NCBI RefSeq assembly: GCF_001427635.1
Contig: NZ_LMHA01000001.1
Span: 1,959,133 to 2,023,132, forward strand
Direction: 5' to 3'
DNA length: 64,000 nt
DNA from: Pseudoxanthomonas sp. Root65
GTDB taxonomy: Bacteria > Pseudomonadota > Gammaproteobacteria > Xanthomonadales > Xanthomonadaceae
In this document: positions 37,913 through 46,672 of the stretch, piece after piece
Layout: every line of letters starts with the position of its first letter
Position numbering within the stretch: the stretch's first letter is position 1
Position numbers and translations under genes: made by a program
The notes under the pieces: model-generated
What the model was told of the DNA's origin: nothing
What the model saw: the letters and a program-made list of their open reading frames with translations, nothing else
The model's database searches: none

Positions 37913-37945
37913 TTTAGAATCCGGGTATCCACACGGGAGTCACGA

Positions 37946-38329
37946 ATGACCAAGCAGATCATCCACACCGACCAGGCGCCCGCGGCCATCGGCCCGTACT
38001 CGCAAGCGGTGCGCGCCGGCAACACGGTGTACTTCTCCGGGCAGATCCCGCTGGATCCGGCGACCGGCAACCTGGTCGACGGCGACATCACCGTGCAGGC
38101 GCGCCGCGCCTTCGACAACCTGAAGGCTGTGGCGGAAGCCGCAGGCGGTTCGCTCGACCGCATCGTGCGACTGGGTCTGTACCTGACCGACCTGTCGCAG
38201 TTCGCGGCGGTCAATGCGGTGATGCAGGACTACTTCGCGGCGCCGTATCCCGCGCGCTCGACGATCGAGGTCTCCGGACTGCCGAAAGGTGCGGCCTTCG
38301 AAGTCGATGCGGTGATGCTGCTGGACTGA
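37946..38329 (+). CDS. ridA: RidA-family reactive imine deaminase
   Basis: A 127-residue YjgF/YER057c/UK114 protein that hydrolyses reactive enamine/imine intermediates from PLP enzymes. The signature is AAPYPARSTIEVSGLPKGA with the arginine that binds substrate carboxylate. PYSQAVRAGNTVYFSGQIPLDP lies near the N-terminus. Length is typical. The start at 37946 is the family start. It follows spoT, as in related genomes. Confidence 0.94.
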   Translation: MTKQIIHTDQAPAAIGPYSQAVRAGNTVYFSGQIPLDPATGNLVDGDITVQARRAFDNLKAVAEAAGGSLDRIVRLGLYLTDLSQFAAVNAVMQDYFAAPYPARSTIEVSGLPKGAAFEVDAVMLLD

Positions 38330-38342
38330 GGGCGGAGGCGTC

Positions 38343-38425
38343 GTAGGGCCGAGCTTGCTCGGCTCCGCATGCCTTCAGGCATGTCGTCGACACAGCAAAA
38401 GACAGCGGAGCACGCTCCGCTCTAC
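38343..38425. repeat. GTAG-headed REP pair at the ridA/AraC-type gene junction
   Basis: The left unit is GTAGGGCCGAGCTTGCTCGG (38343-38366). The right unit is the opposite-strand GTAGAGCGGAGCGTGCTCCG (38425..38404). Each body is a hairpin. The TAG of the right unit is the stop codon of the AraC-type gene (38422-38424), so the element has supplied or replaced the end of that gene. Confidence 0.75.
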
Positions 38426-39459
38426 GCGGGCGAGCGTCGGGTCTCGCTCGGCGTATGCCCGGTCCAGCGCTTGAACGCGCGGCGGAACTCGCGCACGTCG
38501 TTGAAGCCGATCTGGCTGCCGACGGCGGCGATGGTGGTTTCGGCATCCTGCAGCAGCTCCAGTGCCCGTTCGGTGCGCACGCGATCGTGGATGGCGCTGA
38601 ACGTGGTGCCTTCCTCGGCAAGCTGGCGGCGCAGGGTGCGCTCGCTCAGGTGCAGCGCTTCGGCGACGTCAGTCATCTGCGGGTTGTCGCGCAGCCGCGG
38701 GCGCAGCTGGCGTTCGACCGCCGCGGTGGTTTCGCCGCGCAGCGACATCGCGGTGAGCTGTGCGCGGCACAGGGCCAGCGCCTGCCGCGAGGTCACCGGG
38801 TTGTAGCTGGCGAACGGGAGCTCCAGCCAACGCCGGTCCACCACCATCGCGTGCTGGGGCTGGTCGAAGCGGACCTCGCAACCGAACAGGTCGTCATAGC
38901 GCGCGGCATAACGCGGTGCCGGATAACCGAGTTCCAGCCGCAGCGGACGGAACGCCGGCCCCGCCAGTTCGCGGGCCAGCATCAGTGTGCTGGCGAACAT
39001 CTCCTCGCACAGGAACGGCAGCAGGTCGGTGGCCTCCTCCGGTGCGGTCGCCACCACGGCGAGGCTGCCGTCGTCGCGGTCCTGCAGGTCCAGGTCCATC
39101 AGCGGGCCGAGGTTGCGCTGGTACTCCAGGCCGATCTGCACGGCGTCGCCGAACGTCGGCGCGGTCTTCATCGCCAGTCCGAGCAGGCCGAAGTTGCCGC
39201 CGTTCTGCTTCTCGCCCATCGCCAGGCCCACGCCGTCAATCGGCAGCGTCGGCAGGGCACGGCGGATGATCTCGCTGGCCTGGCGGTAGGACACGCGCGC
39301 CTGCGGATCGTGGATCTCCTGCACGTTCAGTCGCATGCCGGCGAACCAGCTTTCCGCCTTCACGCCGAATTCGCCGGCCAGCAGCACCAGGCCGCACAGC
39401 ATGTTGGTGGGCAGGTTGGCGATCGACAGGCGATGGCCCAGTCCGGTCTTCCAGCGCAT
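38422..39459 (-). CDS. AraC-family regulator with N-terminal Arabinose_bd-type domain
   Basis: A 345-residue regulator. The N-terminal about 200 residues resemble the Arabinose_bd (PF12625-like) domain of the OruR-type group (IDGVGLAMGEKQNGGNFGLLGLAM, LLPFLCEEMFASTLMLAREL). The C-terminal two-helix-turn-helix domain has MTDVAEALHLSERTLRRQL and then IAAVGSQIGFNDVREFRRAFKRWTG. It is divergent from the beta-helix/cytochrome/receptor genes, with about 117 bases between start codons, and probably controls them. The inducer is unknown. Confidence 0.85.
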   Translation of the reverse strand: MRWKTGLGHRLSIANLPTNMLCGLVLLAGEFGVKAESWFAGMRLNVQEIHDPQARVSYRQASEIIRRALPTLPIDGVGLAMGEKQNGGNFGLLGLAMKTAPTFGDAVQIGLEYQRNLGPLMDLDLQDRDDGSLAVVATAPEEATDLLPFLCEEMFASTLMLARELAGPAFRPLRLELGYPAPRYAARYDDLFGCEVRFDQPQHAMVVDRRWLELPFASYNPVTSRQALALCRAQLTAMSLRGETTAAVERQLRPRLRDNPQMTDVAEALHLSERTLRRQLAEEGTTFSAIHDRVRTERALELLQDAETTIAAVGSQIGFNDVREFRRAFKRWTGHTPSETRRSPA

Positions 39460-39576
39460 CGAAGCCCTCCAGCTTGTCCGCTTTACCCCCCGTAGTATGC
39501 CGCTCCCGCCCTCCGTGCGGCACCTGCCCGCGCACCAGACTGCGGGGCACTACGCAGGCGTATGGGAGGGGACCTC

Positions 39577-40809
39577 ATGCAACGCACCATGTCCGTGGCG
39601 GTGACCGGCGCGTTGGCGCTGCTGGCCTGCGCCTGCCAGAAGGCGCCGGAAGCTGAACCCGTCGCGGCCGCCGACGCCGCCTTCGCGACGGCCCTGCAGG
39701 AGCGCCTGCTGGACGCCAGGCCCGGCGACGTCATCGAGATCCCGGCCGGTCGCCATGCCTTCGACCGCAGCCTCAGCCTGCGCGCCGACGGCGTGACCAT
39801 CCGCGGTGCCGGCATGGACAAGAGCGTGCTGAGCTTCAAGGGACAGAAGGCCGGCGCCGAGGGCCTGCTGGTCAACGGCAACGACTTCACCATCGAGAAC
39901 CTCACCATCGAGGATTCCAGGGGCGACGGGCTGAAGATCAGCGAGTCGTCGAACATCACCATCCGTGGCGTCAAGGTGCAATGGACCGGCGGTCCCAGCA
40001 CCAAGAACGGCGCCTACGGCATCTATCCGGTACTGACGAAGAACGTGCTGATCGAGGACACGGTGTCCATCGGCGCGTCCGACGCCGGCATCTACGTGGG
40101 CCAGTCCGACGGCGTGATCGTACGGCGCAGCCGTGCCGAGCAGAACGTGGCCGGCATCGAGATCGAGAACACCATCAACGCCGATGTCTACGAGAACGTG
40201 GCCACCGGCAATACCGGCGGCATCCTGGTCTTCAACATGCCCGGCTTGTCGCAGCAGGGCGGCAACATCCGCGTCTATGCGAACAAGGTGATCGCCAACA
40301 ACCACGAGAACTTCGGCGCGAAGGGCACGCCGGTGGCCAGCGTGCCGGCCGGGTCGGGCATCGTCATCAATTCCAACGACGACATCGAAGTGTTCGGCAA
40401 CGAGATCCGCGACAACGCGACCGCCAACATCATCGTCTCCAGCGTCTATTCCACCGGCTACAAGGACAGCAGCGCGTCGCCGAACTTCGATCCATACCCC
40501 GAGCGCATCTTCATCCATGGCAACACGCTGTCCGGGGGTGGCGATTCGCCGGATGGCTTCGACCTGAAGGCGCTGAAGGTCGCTACCTACGGCCTGCGCG
40601 GCACCTTCCCCGACGTGCTGTGGGATGGCTACTTCAACCAGGAGCGCGTGGTGGACGGCCGGAAAGTCGGGCCGCAGATCTGCCTGCGCGACGTCAACGG
40701 CGTGGTCAATGCGGACGGTCCGGGCGGCTACAAGAACCCGAGCAAGGACGCCCAGCTCCACGATTGCGAACTGCCGCGCCTGCCGGCGGTCGATCTGAAG
40801 CGCGGTTGA
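39577..40809 (+). CDS. Parallel beta-helix lipoprotein
   Basis: A 410-residue protein with a lipoprotein signal (ALALLACAC). The body is right-handed parallel beta-helix sequence from about residue 60 to 330, with repeats such as NDFTIENLTIEDSRGDGLKI, DAGIYVGQSDGVIVRRSRAE and NVAGIEIENTINADVYENV. It matches my recollection of the beta_helix_1 family (TIGR03805), found in pairs with a c-type cytochrome-like protein and without known function. A good ribosome site (GGAGGGGA) precedes ATG 39577. The next gene starts 9 bases downstream. Confidence 0.85.
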   Translation: MQRTMSVAVTGALALLACACQKAPEAEPVAAADAAFATALQERLLDARPGDVIEIPAGRHAFDRSLSLRADGVTIRGAGMDKSVLSFKGQKAGAEGLLVNGNDFTIENLTIEDSRGDGLKISESSNITIRGVKVQWTGGPSTKNGAYGIYPVLTKNVLIEDTVSIGASDAGIYVGQSDGVIVRRSRAEQNVAGIEIENTINADVYENVATGNTGGILVFNMPGLSQQGGNIRVYANKVIANNHENFGAKGTPVASVPAGSGIVINSNDDIEVFGNEIRDNATANIIVSSVYSTGYKDSSASPNFDPYPERIFIHGNTLSGGGDSPDGFDLKALKVATYGLRGTFPDVLWDGYFNQERVVDGRKVGPQICLRDVNGVVNADGPGGYKNPSKDAQLHDCELPRLPAVDLKRG

Positions 40810-40818
40810 GGCGAGCGC

Positions 40819-41994
40819 ATGCGGTTGCGCGCGGCGGTGTTGCTGGTGGTCCTTGCGGCCGGGGTGGCGCTGTCCGCGTGCCGACCGGCATCGCGCGTGC
40901 AGTTCTTCGCCGAAGGCCAGCCGGCCACGCTGGACGAATGGGGCGTGCTGCGGATCGAAGACGGTCGCCTGCATCTCAACGAAGGCGTCGTGCCCTACGA
41001 TCTCAACACGCCGTTGTTCAGCGACTACGCGCACAAGCTGCGCACCGTCTGGATGCCGGCCGGCACCTCGGCGACGTACCGGCCGGAACAGAGCTTCGAC
41101 TTTCCCGTCGGCACCATCCTCACCAAGACGTTCTACTACCCGCTGCCCCAAGGAGAAGCGTGGGACGGCAGGTCGGTCGCACGCACGCTGCCCTCGCAGT
41201 CGTCGCTCGAAGCGGAAACACTGGACCTTGCGAAGGTGCGGCTGATCGAGACGCGGCTGCTGGTCCATCGCGCCGAAGGCTGGGTCGCCTTGCCCTATGT
41301 GTGGAACGACGCGCAGACCGCCGCCACGCTGAAGCGCACGGGCGAGCTGGTCGAACTCGAGCTGGTCGATGCGCAGGGCCAGCGTCAGGCGGCGAACTAC
41401 CAGGTGCCGGACCAGAACCAGTGCGGCGGCTGTCATATCACCGACAACAAGTCGCGCAGGCTGCTGCCGATCGGGCCGAAGGCGCGGCATCTGAATCGCG
41501 ATTTCGACTACGCGGGCGGCAAGGAAAACCAACTGGCGCATCTGGTCCGCATCGGTTACCTGACGGGCATGCCGGCGAATGCGCCGCGTCTTGCGGACGC
41601 GATTGATGCCGAAGCCCCGCTCGATGCCCGCGCCCGCGCCTATCTGGACATCAACTGCGGCCACTGCCACAGCGCCACCGGCCCGGCCATCACGTCCGGC
41701 CTGTGGCTGGACGCGCACACGCAGGACCGGCTGAAGCTGGGTTTCTGCAAGCAGCCGATCGCGGCGGGCAAGGGCACGGGCAACCGCTTGTACGACATCG
41801 TCCCGGGGCGTGCGGCCGATTCCATCTTCGATTACCGGTTGGACAGCGATGATCCCGCGATCATGATGCCGGAGCTGGGGCGCTCGGTCGTGCATCGGGA
41901 AGGGGTCGAACTGATCCGCGCCTGGATCAATGCGCAGGCAGGCAGCTGCGACACGGCGACGGCGACAGGTAGTGAACCACCGCCGGCCAGCTGA
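40819..41994 (+). CDS. Diheme c-type cytochrome lipoprotein, SO2930/TIGR03806-like
   Basis: A 391-residue protein. The lipobox (ALSAC, Cys21) predicts membrane anchoring on the periplasmic side or outer membrane. Two heme c sites are seen: Cys202-Cys205-His206 (CGGCH) and Cys280-Cys283-His284 (CGHCH). PEQSFDFPVGTILTKTFYYP and GYLTGMPANAPRL are distinctive. MMPELGRS near the C-terminus offers a distal methionine ligand. It matches the partner family of the beta-helix protein (SO2930/HNE_0200 type, by recollection). Neither substrate nor electron partner is known. Confidence 0.85.
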   Translation: MRLRAAVLLVVLAAGVALSACRPASRVQFFAEGQPATLDEWGVLRIEDGRLHLNEGVVPYDLNTPLFSDYAHKLRTVWMPAGTSATYRPEQSFDFPVGTILTKTFYYPLPQGEAWDGRSVARTLPSQSSLEAETLDLAKVRLIETRLLVHRAEGWVALPYVWNDAQTAATLKRTGELVELELVDAQGQRQAANYQVPDQNQCGGCHITDNKSRRLLPIGPKARHLNRDFDYAGGKENQLAHLVRIGYLTGMPANAPRLADAIDAEAPLDARARAYLDINCGHCHSATGPAITSGLWLDAHTQDRLKLGFCKQPIAAGKGTGNRLYDIVPGRAADSIFDYRLDSDDPAIMMPELGRSVVHREGVELIRAWINAQAGSCDTATATGSEPPPAS

Positions 41995-42029
41995 GGCCGG
42001 TATCCGTACAACGCTTCCGGGAGGGCGTG

Positions 42030-44480
42030 ATGAAAGTGATGCAACGGAATCTGGTCGTGGGGCTTCGGCGGGCGCTGTTCGGCAGTTGCGTGGTGCTCGG
42101 TGCGAGCGGCACGGCGTGGGCGCAGGCAACGCCCGAGGGCGAACAGCAGGCCACCAACCTCGACACCATCACCGTCACCGCGCAAAGTCGGCAGCAGGAG
42201 CTGCAGGATGTGCCGATCGCGCTGCAGGTCGTCGACCAGCAGCTGCTCGACGATGTCGCGGCGGAGAACCTGGGCGACATCGATGCCTTCGTGCCCGGCC
42301 TGGTGGTCGACGCCGCCCAGCCCACGCAACCTTCGTTCCGCCTGCGCGGCGTGGAAACCAGCGACTTCGGCATCGGCACCGATCCGGCGGTGGGCATCTT
42401 CGTCGATGGCGTCTACGGCGGCCGCGGCGGCGGCGTGCTGCTGCCGTTCCTCGATGTCGAGCGCATCGAGGTGCTGAAGGGGCCGCAGGGCACCTTGTTC
42501 GGCCGCAACACCGCCGCGGGTGCGATCTCGCTGGTGACCCGCCGGCCGCAGGACGAGACCGAAGCGCGCCTGCGGCTGCGACTCGGCAACTACGGCAAGC
42601 AGTACGTCGACGCGATGTGGAACATCCCCGTCAGCGACGTCTCGGCCTTCCGCGTGAACGCGCTGTTCAACCACAGCGACGGCTGGTTCCAGGACGGCGC
42701 GACCGGCAAGGATCTCGGCGGCGAGAACGTGTGGGCCGCGCGCGCGGCGTGGCAGCTGCGCATCGGCGACAACACCACGGCGCTGCTGAGCTGGGACCAC
42801 GAAAGCCTGGACCAGAACGGCCGCGTCACCACCGGTATCGTGCCGTTGCCGGCCTATCCGCAGCGACCGCCCGTGCCGGTCGATCCGGACGACTACCTCG
42901 ATCCGCGCAAGGTCCCGACCTACAGCGATGCGAACAACGCCGAGTGGCGCACGTTCGATGGCGTCACCCTGATCATCGATCACGCGTTTTCCTGGGGAAA
43001 TCTGACCTCGACTTCGTCGTGGCGCGAGTACGACTCGCTGAACCAGACCGAAGAGGACGGCACCAACCGCGCCGACCTGTACATTGACTCGGTCAACACC
43101 GAGAGCAACGAGACCTTCTACCAGGAGTTCAAGTTCGCCGGCAGCAACGCGCGTATGGACTGGGTGGCCGGTGCCAGCTTCTTCAAGGAGGACGCGCGCC
43201 AGACCAGCGAGGTGAACACCAATACCGAGGCGGTGGACAACATCGTGCGCAACCTCGGCATCGCGCCGACGCCGGACGGCAGCCTGTTCGGCTTCACCTC
43301 GCTGCTGGCGCAGATGAACGGCATCCCCGTCTCGCTGGTCGGCGACCGCTGGAACGAGCGCTTCAACAACACGCTGTCGACCAACGCCTACGCGGCGTTC
43401 GGCGATGTCATCTGGCGCGCGACCGATCGGCTCAATCTGACTTTCGGTCTGCGCTACACCCGCGACGAGAAGGATTTCACCTGGCTCAACACGCCGCGCA
43501 ATGCGCCGGAGCTGGAAGCCAAGCTGGCGCTGCTGGAGTCGCTGGGCTTCTTCGCCGCGCTGGGGCAGCTGGGCATCCCGATCAGCCGCGAGACGCTGAC
43601 CTTCGACATGGCGTTCATCGATCCGCCGGCCATCGTCAACAAGGGCGTGCTGGTGCGCGACAAGCGCAGCTGGAGCGATGTCAGCCCGCGCTTCGTCGTC
43701 GACTACCACCTCGACGACAACACCATGGTGTTCGGTTCGCTGGCCAAGGGCTACAAGGCCGGCGGCTTCAATGCACTGCAGATCGGTCCGGCGTTCGAGA
43801 ACGAGGATGTCTGGAACCTGGAAGCCGGCATCAAGCAGTCGTTCGGGCGCTTCGCCTGGAACGCGTCGCTGTTCCACTACCGCTACGACAACCGGCAGTC
43901 CGTGCGGTTGATCGATCCCGACCCTAACAATCCGGTCGACATCCCGCGTTTCGTGTTCGACACCGGCGATCTGGAAGCCACCGGCCTCGACGTGGACCTG
44001 CGCTGGAAGGTGACGGATGCCTTCACCCTGGATGCCCAGGCCGAGTGGATCGATTCCAAGTACAAGGACTACGTCACGCCCGAAGGCGTGGACCTGGACG
44101 GCGAGCCGACCGGCGAGCCGCGTTTCACCGCCTCGTTCGGTGCGGCCTACCAGGTCGACCTGGCCGCGCACGGCGCGTTGCGCATCTCGGCGCGGCACGC
44201 TTATCGCGGCCGCAGCCGCTGCAACGCCGGATCGGACCTGCAGGGCGATTGCGGGGTCAACGCGCTGCTCGACATCGGCGAGGCGCGCGACCGCACCGAC
44301 CTGCGGATCGGCTGGACCGCGCCGCAAGGGCACTGGAGCTGGGCGATCTACGGCAACAACGTGTTCGACAACCAGTACGTGAAAGGCCTGAACACCTATG
44401 GCCGCGGACCGCTGGGACTGGTGGGTGCCACCATCACCGAGCCGCGCACCTACGGCATGGAAGTGGCCGTGAAGTTCTGA
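42030..44480 (+). CDS. TonB-dependent outer-membrane receptor
   Basis: An 816-residue outer-membrane receptor. Signal peptide about 1-30 (ends GTAWA). A TonB box-like LDTITVTAQ near residue 42 follows. The plug domain (LQDVPIALQVVDQQLL, VERIEVLKGPQGTLFGRNTAAGAI) ends near 170, and the beta-barrel closes with a terminal phenylalanine (YGMEVAVKF). The plug/barrel style resembles the large TBDT family of xanthomonads and sphingomonads that import carbohydrates, aromatics or lipids. Substrate unknown. ATG 42030 follows GGGAGGG; a GTG is one codon upstream. It shares the strand with the cytochrome gene, 35 bases apart. Confidence 0.9.
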   Translation: MKVMQRNLVVGLRRALFGSCVVLGASGTAWAQATPEGEQQATNLDTITVTAQSRQQELQDVPIALQVVDQQLLDDVAAENLGDIDAFVPGLVVDAAQPTQPSFRLRGVETSDFGIGTDPAVGIFVDGVYGGRGGGVLLPFLDVERIEVLKGPQGTLFGRNTAAGAISLVTRRPQDETEARLRLRLGNYGKQYVDAMWNIPVSDVSAFRVNALFNHSDGWFQDGATGKDLGGENVWAARAAWQLRIGDNTTALLSWDHESLDQNGRVTTGIVPLPAYPQRPPVPVDPDDYLDPRKVPTYSDANNAEWRTFDGVTLIIDHAFSWGNLTSTSSWREYDSLNQTEEDGTNRADLYIDSVNTESNETFYQEFKFAGSNARMDWVAGASFFKEDARQTSEVNTNTEAVDNIVRNLGIAPTPDGSLFGFTSLLAQMNGIPVSLVGDRWNERFNNTLSTNAYAAFGDVIWRATDRLNLTFGLRYTRDEKDFTWLNTPRNAPELEAKLALLESLGFFAALGQLGIPISRETLTFDMAFIDPPAIVNKGVLVRDKRSWSDVSPRFVVDYHLDDNTMVFGSLAKGYKAGGFNALQIGPAFENEDVWNLEAGIKQSFGRFAWNASLFHYRYDNRQSVRLIDPDPNNPVDIPRFVFDTGDLEATGLDVDLRWKVTDAFTLDAQAEWIDSKYKDYVTPEGVDLDGEPTGEPRFTASFGAAYQVDLAAHGALRISARHAYRGRSRCNAGSDLQGDCGVNALLDIGEARDRTDLRIGWTAPQGHWSWAIYGNNVFDNQYVKGLNTYGRGPLGLVGATITEPRTYGMEVAVKF

Positions 44481-44507
44481 GCCGCGCGGCGACGCGCTGG
44501 ACGTGGG

Positions 44508-44536
44508 CCCCGGCATCGTGAGATGCCGGGGTTTTT
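44508..44536 (+). terminator. Rho-independent terminator after the TonB-dependent receptor
   Basis: A perfect 10-base-pair stem (CCCCGGCATC / GATGCCGGGG) with loop GTGA is followed by TTTTT. It closes the beta-helix/cytochrome/receptor operon before recG. Confidence 0.9.
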
Positions 44537-44566: not shown

Positions 44567-46672
44567 ATGCCTGCACGTCGCGACACGCCTGCCATCGAAC
44601 TTTCCGCCGAACCGTTGAGTCGCCTGCCCGGCGTGGGGCCGCGCGTGGCGGAGAAGCTCGCGGCGCGCGGACTGGTGACGATGCAGGACCTGTGGCTGCA
44701 CCTGCCGCTGCGTTACGAAGACCGCACGGCGATCACGCCGATCCGCCTGCTGCAGCCCGGTGTGCCGGCGCAGGTGGAAGGGCGCGTGGAAGCGGTGGAG
44801 CGCGGCTTCCGCTATCGGCCCGTCCTGCGGGTGGCAGTGGCCGACGACGGACAGGGCTCGCTGGTGCTGCGCTTCTTCCATTTCCGCGCCGCACAGGTGG
44901 CGCAGTTCGCGGTCGGCACGCGCATCCGGTGCTACGGCACGCCCAAGCCCGGCCAGAACGGTCTCGAAATCATCCACCCCAGCTATCGCGTGCTCGGCGA
45001 TGACGACGACGCGGCGTTGGGCGAGGCACTGGATCCGGTCTATCCCGCGATCGAAGGGCTGGGGCCGGCGAGCATCCGCAAGCTGGTCGGACAGGCGCTG
45101 GAACGGCTGCCGGACAATGATCAGCTCGAACTGCTGCCCGCCACGCTGCTTGAGGGCCTCGGCTTGCCCTCGCTGCGGCAGGCCCTGCTCACCATGCACC
45201 GGCCGCCCCGCGATGCGGACGTCGCGGCGCTCGCACTCGGCACGCATCCCGCGCAACGCCGGCTGGCGATCGAGGAACTGCTGGCGCACCACCTGAGCCT
45301 GCGCCGGCAACGGCTGGCGTTGCAACAGCATCGTGCGCCGGCACTGAAAGGCAAGGGCGCGTTGGTGAAGGCGCTGGTCAAGGCCTTGCCGTTCACGCTG
45401 ACGGGCGCGCAGCAGCGCGTGTTCGCGCAGATCCGCGAGGACATCGGCAAGCCAACGCCGATGATGCGGCTCGTGCAGGGCGACGTGGGCAGCGGCAAGA
45501 CCGTGGTCGCCGCGCTGGCGGGCATGCTGGCGGTCGAGGCGGGCAAGCAGGTGGCATTGGCCGCACCCACCGAACTGCTGGCCGAGCAACACCTGGCCAA
45601 CCTGCGCGCCTGGCTGGAGCCGCTGGGCGTGCGCGTGGCTTGGCTGGCCGGCAAGGTCACCGGCAAGGCGCGCGCGACGGTGCTGGCACAGGTCGCATCG
45701 GGCGAAGCGCAGGTGGTGGTGGGCACGCACGCGCTGATGCAGGAGGCGGTGACCTTCCACGACTTGGGCCTGGCCATCGTCGACGAGCAGCACCGCTTCG
45801 GCGTGCACCAGCGACTGGCGCTGCGCGACAAGGGCGCGGGCGCCAACCGCGTACCGCACCAGCTAGTCATGACCGCCACGCCGATTCCGCGCACGCTGGC
45901 GATGGCCGCCTATGCGGATCTGGACGTGTCCGCCATCGATGAACTGCCGCCGGGCCGCACGCCGGTGCAGACCGTGGCACTGAGCGCGGAGCGCCGGCCG
46001 GAACTGGTCGAACGCATCCGCACGGCCTGTGCGGAGGGCCGGCAGGCGTATTGGGTCTGCACGCTGATCGACGACAGCGACGAGGTGGTCGCGCAGGCGG
46101 CACAGACCACGTTCGAGGCGCTGTCGGCGTCCCTGTCGGAGGCGCGCGTGGCGCTGGTGCACGGGCGCATGAAGGCGGCCGACAAGCAGGCCACGATGCG
46201 CCGCTTCAAGCAGGGCGAGATCGACCTGCTGGTGGCCACCACGGTGATTGAGGTCGGTGTCGACGTGCCTAACGCCTCGCTGATGATCATCGAGAACGCC
46301 GAGCGGCTGGGGCTGGCGCAGCTGCACCAGTTGCGCGGTCGTGTCGGCCGCGGCGCGACCGCGTCCACCTGCGTGCTGATGTACCAGCCGCCGCTGTCGA
46401 TGATGGCCAAGCACCGGCTGGCGACGATGCGCGAAACCAACGATGGCTTCGTCATTGCCGAGAAGGACCTGGAACTGCGCGGCCCCGGCGAACTGCTGGG
46501 AACGCGACAGACCGGTCTGGCGGCGTTCCGCGTGGCCGACCTGGCGCGCGATGCGGGCCTGCTGCCGCAGGTGCACGCACTGGCGGAGCGCCTGCTGGCC
46601 GACGCTCCCGCCACGGCGGACCGCGTGATCCAGCGCTGGGTCGGCGGCGCTGCTCGCTACGCATCGGCGTAG
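44567..46672 (+). CDS. recG: ATP-dependent DNA helicase RecG
   Basis: A 701-residue helicase that remodels stalled replication forks and branched DNA. The N-terminal wedge/OB domain spans about 1-260. Walker A is GDVGSGKT with Lys311; the DEQH box is residues 406-409. RecG-type motifs MTATPIPRTLAMAAYADLDV and the C-terminal QLHQLRGRVGRG are present. In E. coli the order is spoT-trmH-recG; here ridA and the inserted AraC/beta-helix module lie between. Its TAG stop is inside a GTAG sequence. Confidence 0.95.
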   Translation: MPARRDTPAIELSAEPLSRLPGVGPRVAEKLAARGLVTMQDLWLHLPLRYEDRTAITPIRLLQPGVPAQVEGRVEAVERGFRYRPVLRVAVADDGQGSLVLRFFHFRAAQVAQFAVGTRIRCYGTPKPGQNGLEIIHPSYRVLGDDDDAALGEALDPVYPAIEGLGPASIRKLVGQALERLPDNDQLELLPATLLEGLGLPSLRQALLTMHRPPRDADVAALALGTHPAQRRLAIEELLAHHLSLRRQRLALQQHRAPALKGKGALVKALVKALPFTLTGAQQRVFAQIREDIGKPTPMMRLVQGDVGSGKTVVAALAGMLAVEAGKQVALAAPTELLAEQHLANLRAWLEPLGVRVAWLAGKVTGKARATVLAQVASGEAQVVVGTHALMQEAVTFHDLGLAIVDEQHRFGVHQRLALRDKGAGANRVPHQLVMTATPIPRTLAMAAYADLDVSAIDELPPGRTPVQTVALSAERRPELVERIRTACAEGRQAYWVCTLIDDSDEVVAQAAQTTFEALSASLSEARVALVHGRMKAADKQATMRRFKQGEIDLLVATTVIEVGVDVPNASLMIIENAERLGLAQLHQLRGRVGRGATASTCVLMYQPPLSMMAKHRLATMRETNDGFVIAEKDLELRGPGELLGTRQTGLAAFRVADLARDAGLLPQVHALAERLLADAPATADRVIQRWVGGAARYASA

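Follow-up and report, generated by a model that had tools for sequence, protein, structure and literature searches.

A candidate AraC-controlled envelope operon in Pseudoxanthomonas sp. Root65 and its relatives that joins a beta-helix lipoprotein and a diheme cytochrome c to a TonB-dependent receptor

Background

The operons for quinohemoprotein amine dehydrogenase (qhp) and for other periplasmic cytochrome-linked dehydrogenases have an AraC-type switch and periplasmic diheme electron transfer, and the peg (polyethylene glycol) operons of sphingomonads comprise a receptor, an AraC-type regulator, cytochrome-linked alcohol oxidation and an aldehyde dehydrogenase (ALDH), the alcohol dehydrogenase being a flavoprotein. 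Here we describe a block of four genes in a stretch of 64,000 nucleotides from Pseudoxanthomonas sp. Root65 (assembly GCF_001427635.1, contig NZ_LMHA01000001.1, positions 1,959,133 to 2,023,132 of the forward strand), which is called the window and whose numbering is used throughout. The block encodes an AraC-family regulator, a beta-helix lipoprotein of family TIGR03805 (BH), a diheme lipoprotein of family TIGR03806 (CYT) and a TonB-dependent receptor (TBDR). It is likely that the four form a single envelope unit in the Xanthomonadaceae, because all 73 fetched loci in which CYT is above the cut-off have the regulator and the receptor beside BH and CYT, and because there is one operator candidate specific to the operon.

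The parallel beta-helix fold is known for carbohydrate binding, lyases and epimerases. The NCBIfam names of the two families, parallel beta-helix domain-containing protein (TIGR03805) and SO2930 family diheme c-type cytochrome (TIGR03806), carry no function. SO_2930 is placed in an outer-membrane/extracellular column (PMC4837345), a TIGR03805-labelled gene lies within an exopolysaccharide cluster (PMC3584217), and the ped cluster is the subject of a review (PMC12997753). The literature searches brought up no paper that ties this pair to a PF12625 AraC gene with its own operator candidate, to a receptor and to an ALDH.

Results and Discussion

Gene order and conservation of the block

The first-pass annotation, made from the letters of the window, had reported at 38422..44536 an AraC-type gene followed by genes for a beta-helix lipoprotein, a diheme lipoprotein and a TonB receptor, with gaps of 9 and 35 bases between the last three, lipoboxes in the two middle proteins, and the heme sites CGGCH and CGHCH in CYT. 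The ORFs, the families, the terminator-like stem, both gaps and all of these motifs were confirmed, and the motifs are conserved among the relatives. The regulator gene (38422..39459, reverse strand, 345 amino acids) is divergent from BH (39577..40809, 410 amino acids), CYT (40819..41994, 391 amino acids) and TBDR (42030..44480, 816 amino acids), which are all on the forward strand. The block is bounded on the left by ridA upstream (37943..38329) and on the right by recG downstream (44567..46672), both on the forward strand and both outside the unit. For BH the start at ATG 39577, behind GGAGG, is preferred over that at 39562, and between its stop at 40809 and the ATG of CYT at 40819 there are 9 bases. 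The gap of 35 bases runs from the CYT stop at 41994 to the better TBDR start, ATG 42030 behind GGGAGG, and becomes 32 with the alternative start GTG 42027 from the mechanical ORF list. An intrinsic-terminator-like stem-loop of 13 pairs follows at 44505..44534 on the forward strand; terminator-like sites as a class were not in excess in the window (4 compared to 4.5 +/- 2.3 in shuffles), and a promoter scan of the window showed no class-level excess.

When 297 genomes of the family Xanthomonadaceae were surveyed, CYT was found above the cut-off in 74, the source genome included, and the loci of the other 73 were fetched together with five weaker ones, two further weak ones being left out (L-numbers denote loci and G-numbers genomes of the comparison sets; genus genomes are those of Pseudoxanthomonas). 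In all 73 fetched loci above the cut-off, AraC, BH, CYT and TBDR are present in the same order and orientation, with the receptor match of L104 in two pieces. This arrangement, repeated in 73 of 73 loci, is far beyond chance, and the possibility that the genes are chance neighbours was rejected. Among the five weaker loci, L116, L118, L119 and L120 have a distant CYT-like gene only, and L117 (G313) has the block as fragments, which fits decay or an assembly error.

BH scored 425.7 bits against TIGR03805 (curated cut-off 141.5) and CYT, with its two CxxCH heme sites, 392.2 bits against TIGR03806 (curated cut-off 313.3), so both are members of their families. The BH of the window shares 93% identity with its counterpart in P. 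japonensis. Some invariant BH residues (K120, Y150, Y173, E195 and E197) would lie on successive turns, a ladder that was read by eye from the repeat register. The Cys and His of the CYT heme sites are invariant across 78 aligned sequences. The lipobox Cys (Cys 20 in BH and Cys 21 in CYT) is kept in 77 of 77 BH and 78 of 78 CYT sequences. Lipoproteins that have no Asp at position +2 after this Cys are sorted to the outer membrane; Asp is found there in 0 of 77 BH and 4 of 78 CYT sequences, the window residues being Gln and Arg, respectively, and this suggests that both proteins are anchored in the outer membrane. CYT had no match to the CCP/MauG family PF03150 at E 0.001, and none of the four window proteins matched the PQQ glucose/sorbosone dehydrogenase family (GSDH, PF07995) at that threshold. 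A single-sequence search with CYT found no solved structure at E up to 1, and its profile gave only short matches to c-type cytochromes around one heme site. The regulator matched PF12625 (Arabinose_bd, 145.3 bits) and HTH_18 (75.8 bits) and stayed below the curated cut-offs of QhpR, its best NCBIfam match (139 bits, cut-off 250), GliR (128.2, cut-off 570) and CypR (114.9, cut-off 500). A second full-length AraC protein of its kind was not found in the source genome. TBDR matched both the plug (PF07715) and the barrel (PF00593), and its best other receptor in the source genome is only 33% identical, which makes it a distinct family.

A putative operator between the regulator gene and BH

An operator-like element, a candidate site at 39467..39518 on the forward strand, lies between the divergent genes. 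Its core is at 39474-39502, TTGTCCGCTTTACCCCCCGTAGTATGCCG, and the element contains two similar half-sites about 22 bp apart. A 12-mer of the element, with two mismatches and either strand allowed, was found in 64 of 75 AraC-BH regions, compared to 18, 22 and 16 for the best 12-mer in three shuffled sets. A matrix made from 70 of the 75 regions, with the window included in the training and two members scoring only 7 and 20, gave a score of 62 at 39467 in the window, and the next best place scored -3.5. The pattern occurs exactly once in 29 of the 38 genus genomes and not at all in the reversed control, and these 29 are all 28 genomes that have BH above the cut-off plus G013. The element was also found beside the blocks of L185, L266 and L271, where neither ridA nor recG is near, but the loci of Dyella, Rhodanobacter and Dokdonella had no site scoring above 18 bits. 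For the two half-sites, column permutation gave p = 0.0024 for offsets of 20-23 and p = 0.03 for any offset of 8-33. The natural reading of the element is that of a putative AraC-type binding site. In G013 the perfect match (contig C36:31851-31879) is in a genome with no TIGR03805 hit; it is perhaps a solo operator left by loss of the operon.

Association of BH with CYT

The two families were seen, by record titles, in Alpha-, Beta- and Gammaproteobacteria. In the named loci (n = 80, the best 80 of at least 581 confirmed matches) CYT lies within 6.5 kb of BH in all 80 found with BH, which bears out the earlier statement that the two families recur as a pair. A related receptor (above 200 bits with its own model) is near the pair in 29 of these 80 and a related AraC gene in 21. 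In two Kordiimonas loci, Maricaulis and Hyphomonas the pair is followed by a TetR gene and then by a close receptor, and the type of regulator is therefore exchangeable. The odd gene orders in L060, L067, L296 and L331 come from ORF extents some of which are too long.

BH and CYT are also found in one chain. Such fusions, always with BH first, were confirmed in eight proteins (L178, L183, L210, L211, L216, L128, L146 and L136) that span six families by their locus labels, and L180 resembles them in length and homology. The BH part is above the cut-off in all eight and the CYT part only in L178 and L183. A class search gave CYT-like matches in 39 of 369 genomes, and 26 loci beyond the order of the source genome were cut out (L124-L149). 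Here 17 CYT-like domains are fused behind a PQQ-type GSDH propeller, three are fused behind BH and three have neither partner in the same frame, and in L124-L126 CYT is a separate gene above the cut-off with BH beside it, as seen in L212-L214. In the 17 distinct propeller fusions GSDH was recognised by Pfam above the gathering score in eight and by an NCBIfam model, below its cut-off, in the other nine. L149 has several TIGR03806-like genes or pieces in succession on one contig.

Trees were made for the 54 of 75 loci that have all six genes near full length, the other 21 being excluded. The correlation of patristic distances was highest for BH and CYT (0.86), compared to 0.77 for the flanking recG and spoT. 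The splits shared out of 51 were 33 for AraC-BH, 36 for AraC-CYT, 34 for BH-CYT, 30 for recG-spoT and 17-22 for TBDR with any other gene; for AraC with BH and CYT, among others, the split counts and the distance correlations disagree. From their adjacency, their fusion elsewhere and their most correlated distances, BH and CYT evidently behave as one unit. The simplest reading of the fusions and of the exchange of partners is that CYT would be the electron acceptor and BH the substrate handler.

Neighbouring genes and the probable substrate

An ALDH gene lies directly after TBDR in 12 loci and between TBDR and BH in a 13th (L319); these belong to Dyella, Rhodanobacter, Dokdonella, one Stenotrophomonas and some others. 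The model used to search for ALDH was made from 12 of these 13 neighbours and a second gene of L300, and L083 was found independently. The neighbour ALDH reaches no NCBIfam cut-off. Four cluster-1 neighbours were scanned; three had the benzaldehyde dehydrogenase MdlD as their best NCBIfam model, and the fourth, L323, which is outside the 13, is a succinate-semialdehyde dehydrogenase. The nearest solved relatives of the L281 enzyme are steroid, unnamed, fatty and class-3 aldehyde dehydrogenases. FadL is encoded downstream of ALDH in six Dyella and Rhodanobacter loci. In L211 it comes directly before the BH-CYT fusion: a divergent AraC gene (PF12625) is followed there by SDR, DUF1989, a small ORF, FadL and the fused gene. 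In L307 genes for AtuA, a Coq4-like protein and SDR are upstream of the block and an acyl-CoA dehydrogenase gene is about 2.5 kb downstream of ALDH; AtuA was not found in the other fetched loci searched. On the Novosphingobium plasmid pABRDHK22 (L364) the annotated order is ALDH, AdhP, receptor, BH and CYT, and near the pair there are another receptor, ALDH, an AraC-type gene, a PQQ alcohol dehydrogenase and an amine dehydrogenase subunit; GAF and NTF2 genes there were read as local synteny. The receptor beside this pair (L364 9985-13777), the closest there to the TBDR of the window, is interrupted by an IS5-family transposase gene. Because of the ALDH, FadL, L307 and Novosphingobium neighbours a hydrophobic primary alcohol or aldehyde, whether fatty, terpenoid or aromatic, would be the likeliest substrate.

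A possible function and its alternatives

We give about an even chance to the proposal that the block is a dedicated old envelope operon for regulated import and periplasmic cytochrome-linked oxidation. The AraC protein would bind a ligand and the element and activate the BH-CYT-TBDR transcript, and TBDR would carry the substrate across the outer membrane. BH and CYT, as lipoproteins facing the periplasm, would then oxidise it: the conserved face of BH would bind or activate the substrate, and the two hemes of CYT would pass electrons to a soluble cytochrome c and from there to a terminal oxidase. An ALDH, whose gene is beside the receptor in some relatives and perhaps elsewhere in the source genome, would finish the product, which would probably be an aldehyde or an acid. 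More tentatively, BH-CYT may be a periplasmic dehydrogenase of a new class, with a parallel beta-helix, in place of a PQQ, flavin or molybdenum domain, as the substrate-handling and possibly the catalytic subunit, the diheme protein as its built-in acceptor, a fast-exchanging TonB receptor as the supplier and an AraC protein with one target as the switch.

Several observations weigh against this proposal. No dehydrogenase domain or cofactor site was recognised in BH in NCBIfam and Pfam scans, GSDH, the partner of CYT in its other fusions, is a sugar-dehydrogenase family, and the CYT part is below the cut-off in six of the eight fusions with BH and in every one of the 17 with GSDH. The distance correlation of AraC was 0.48 with BH and 0.44 with CYT, and 0.53 and 0.55 with the flanks. 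The pair is alone in 50 of the 80 named loci; in the sample L178-L217 (n = 40) a related receptor is near it in five and a related AraC protein above 200 bits in one, and Pseudomonas pair loci adjoin genes for a radical SAM protein and a mechanosensitive channel, which were read as local synteny. The links to ALDH, FadL and AtuA come from a minority of loci, that to AtuA from a single one, and FadL in Dyella may be general synteny. In the source genome the best ALDH relative is far from the block, with no operator-like site near it and no pathway context by eye. The ALDHs of L364 are only 35% and 30% identical to that of the 13 loci. At E 1e-5 the AraC-type gene of L364 gave no match to the AraC of the window. 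The uptake and oxidation unit proposed in the first-pass annotation thus gains from the fusions, from ALDH in 13 loci and from one annotated alcohol and aldehyde dehydrogenase neighbourhood, but beyond the Xanthomonadaceae the pair is mostly by itself; likewise, that the four genes make one system holds in the fetched loci of the family, with their one operator candidate, but not in those 50 named loci.

A carbohydrate system, in which BH would be a beta-helix that binds polysaccharide or uronate and CYT would oxidise the sugar or sugar alcohol that the receptor brings in, is unlikely but is the best of the alternatives. The only solved relatives found with the BH profile are the mannuronan epimerase AlgE4 and a PL6 lyase; these matches are weak, however, and span only a short part of BH. 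The 17 proteins with GSDH domains, a pectinacetylesterase-like gene in L311 and glycoside hydrolase genes near a distant beta-helix gene in Hymenobacter point the same way, whereas no glycoside hydrolase or lyase was found in the selection of neighbours searched by family, the ALDH is of the fatty, steroid and benzaldehyde group, and it is FadL that precedes the fusion in L211.

Quite improbable is that the receptor takes up a ferric complex, as in metal or siderophore uptake, and that CYT acts in the periplasm to reduce the metal or set it free. The nearest named receptors to TBDR by sequence are siderophore and colicin receptors, and a surface cytochrome could serve as a reductase, but TBDR stayed below the cut-off of the siderophore-receptor family TIGR01783 (151.7 compared to 223.5 bits), alcohol and aldehyde genes adjoin the block in some relatives, and the other fusion partner of the cytochrome is a dehydrogenase. 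We consider equally doubtful that BH is a NosD-like factor for assembly of CYT or delivery of metal to it, with no handling of substrate. BH is weakly similar to PF05048 (43.8 bits, above the gathering score) and to the NosD model TIGR04247 (36.4 bits, below the cut-off of 300), and in the loci read its gene adjoins that of a heme protein; it would, however, be unusual for a maturation factor to be joined with CYT in one chain, and there are chains in which a CYT-like domain has GSDH in place of BH.

History of the locus

Returning to the proposal of a dedicated old operon, the block lies between ridA and recG in 63 of 74 loci from 13 genera, has only one of these flanks in 3 and is elsewhere in 8. 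In all 14 intervals read that are free of the block (12 genomes picked from 12 genera without the block and two with the block elsewhere), ridA is immediately next to recG, and spoT was seen in all of them but L258. The full site in 63 loci of 13 genera and the 14 cleanly empty intervals therefore speak for an old module and not for a recent insertion. This fits an old locus in the family that would have undergone clean losses and some relocation. The comparison of the interval thus upheld the presence and absence of the block that the first-pass annotation had asked about, but not the recent insertion that it had suggested. A recent mobile cassette would explain the clean empty sites and the eight blocks elsewhere, but it is very improbable and is rejected as the main account, being largely refuted by the common site, by AraC, BH and CYT following the genus like the flanks, by an inspection by eye of the ORFs listed for the block and its surroundings, which showed no transposase or integrase, and by the rarity of BH relatives on plasmids (8 of 72,556 records, each with less than 80% of BH covered).

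The receptor has a history of its own. When the nearest 15 relatives were taken for 16 genus members, the mean share from the genus was 0.89 for recG, 1.0 for spoT, 0.93 for AraC, BH and CYT, and only 0.44 for TBDR, whose distance correlation was 0.51 and 0.52 with the flanks, 0.35 with BH and 0.31 with CYT. In L087 about 160 residues of the receptor (approximately 400-560) are 54-64% identical inside a protein that is otherwise 91-100% identical, like an exchanged barrel segment. AraC, BH and CYT thus follow the genus and the receptor does not; its low genus share and this divergent segment argue that it has been exchanged in place. The earlier expectation that receptor and regulator would not vary independently of the pair stands for the position of the receptor, which is kept, but fails for its sequence.

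The gap between ridA and the AraC gene has a perfect palindrome, GCCGAGC-TT-GCTCGGC (38348-38363), the only one in the window and REP-like by its look. The blocks of L083 and L266, which are outside the ridA-recG interval, are both near a panB-like gene (by eye) and both have ALDH.

Comparison with known systems

What is new here is the operator candidate, the fusions of CYT to BH and to a propeller, ALDH as a further gene and the exchange of the receptor, the families of the pair being already known by name. With the natural fusions, an electron-acceptor logic that allows a domain swap with PQQ-type dehydrogenases, the operator candidate and a short list of substrates, the function of TIGR03805 and TIGR03806 becomes testable, and if BH proves catalytic, the beta-helix fold of carbohydrate binders, lyases and epimerases would join the redox enzymes.

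The TIGR03805/TIGR03806 pair itself is among the nearest known systems, as both window proteins are above the curated cut-offs and side by side. The GSDH-TIGR03806 fusions are like the window in that a cytochrome module of the same model serves a substrate-handling domain, to which it is C-terminal in the fusions; they differ in that the window has a separate beta-helix lipoprotein in place of the propeller and that the fused cytochromes are below the TIGR03806 cut-off. L215 has a beta-helix gene, a c-type cytochrome, a CCP/MauG-type protein (PF03150) and an AraC-type gene, and L365 (Ruegeria pomeroyi) has a beta-helix gene, cytochrome c, an annotated cytochrome c peroxidase and an AraC-type gene, with a TPR gene between the peroxidase and the beta-helix gene. 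As in the window, a beta-helix protein, a diheme protein and an AraC-type gene are in one cluster, but their diheme proteins belong to a different family, being PF03150 in L215 and the annotated peroxidase in L365. The arrangement of these two loci may be a parallel system of its own. The qhp operons share the AraC-type switch, with QhpR as the best NCBIfam match of the window regulator at 139 bits of the 250 required, but none of the four window proteins was recognised as a Qhp subunit, and a beta-helix protein and a TonB receptor are there instead. Compared to the peg operons, BH-CYT would take the place of the flavoprotein alcohol dehydrogenase.

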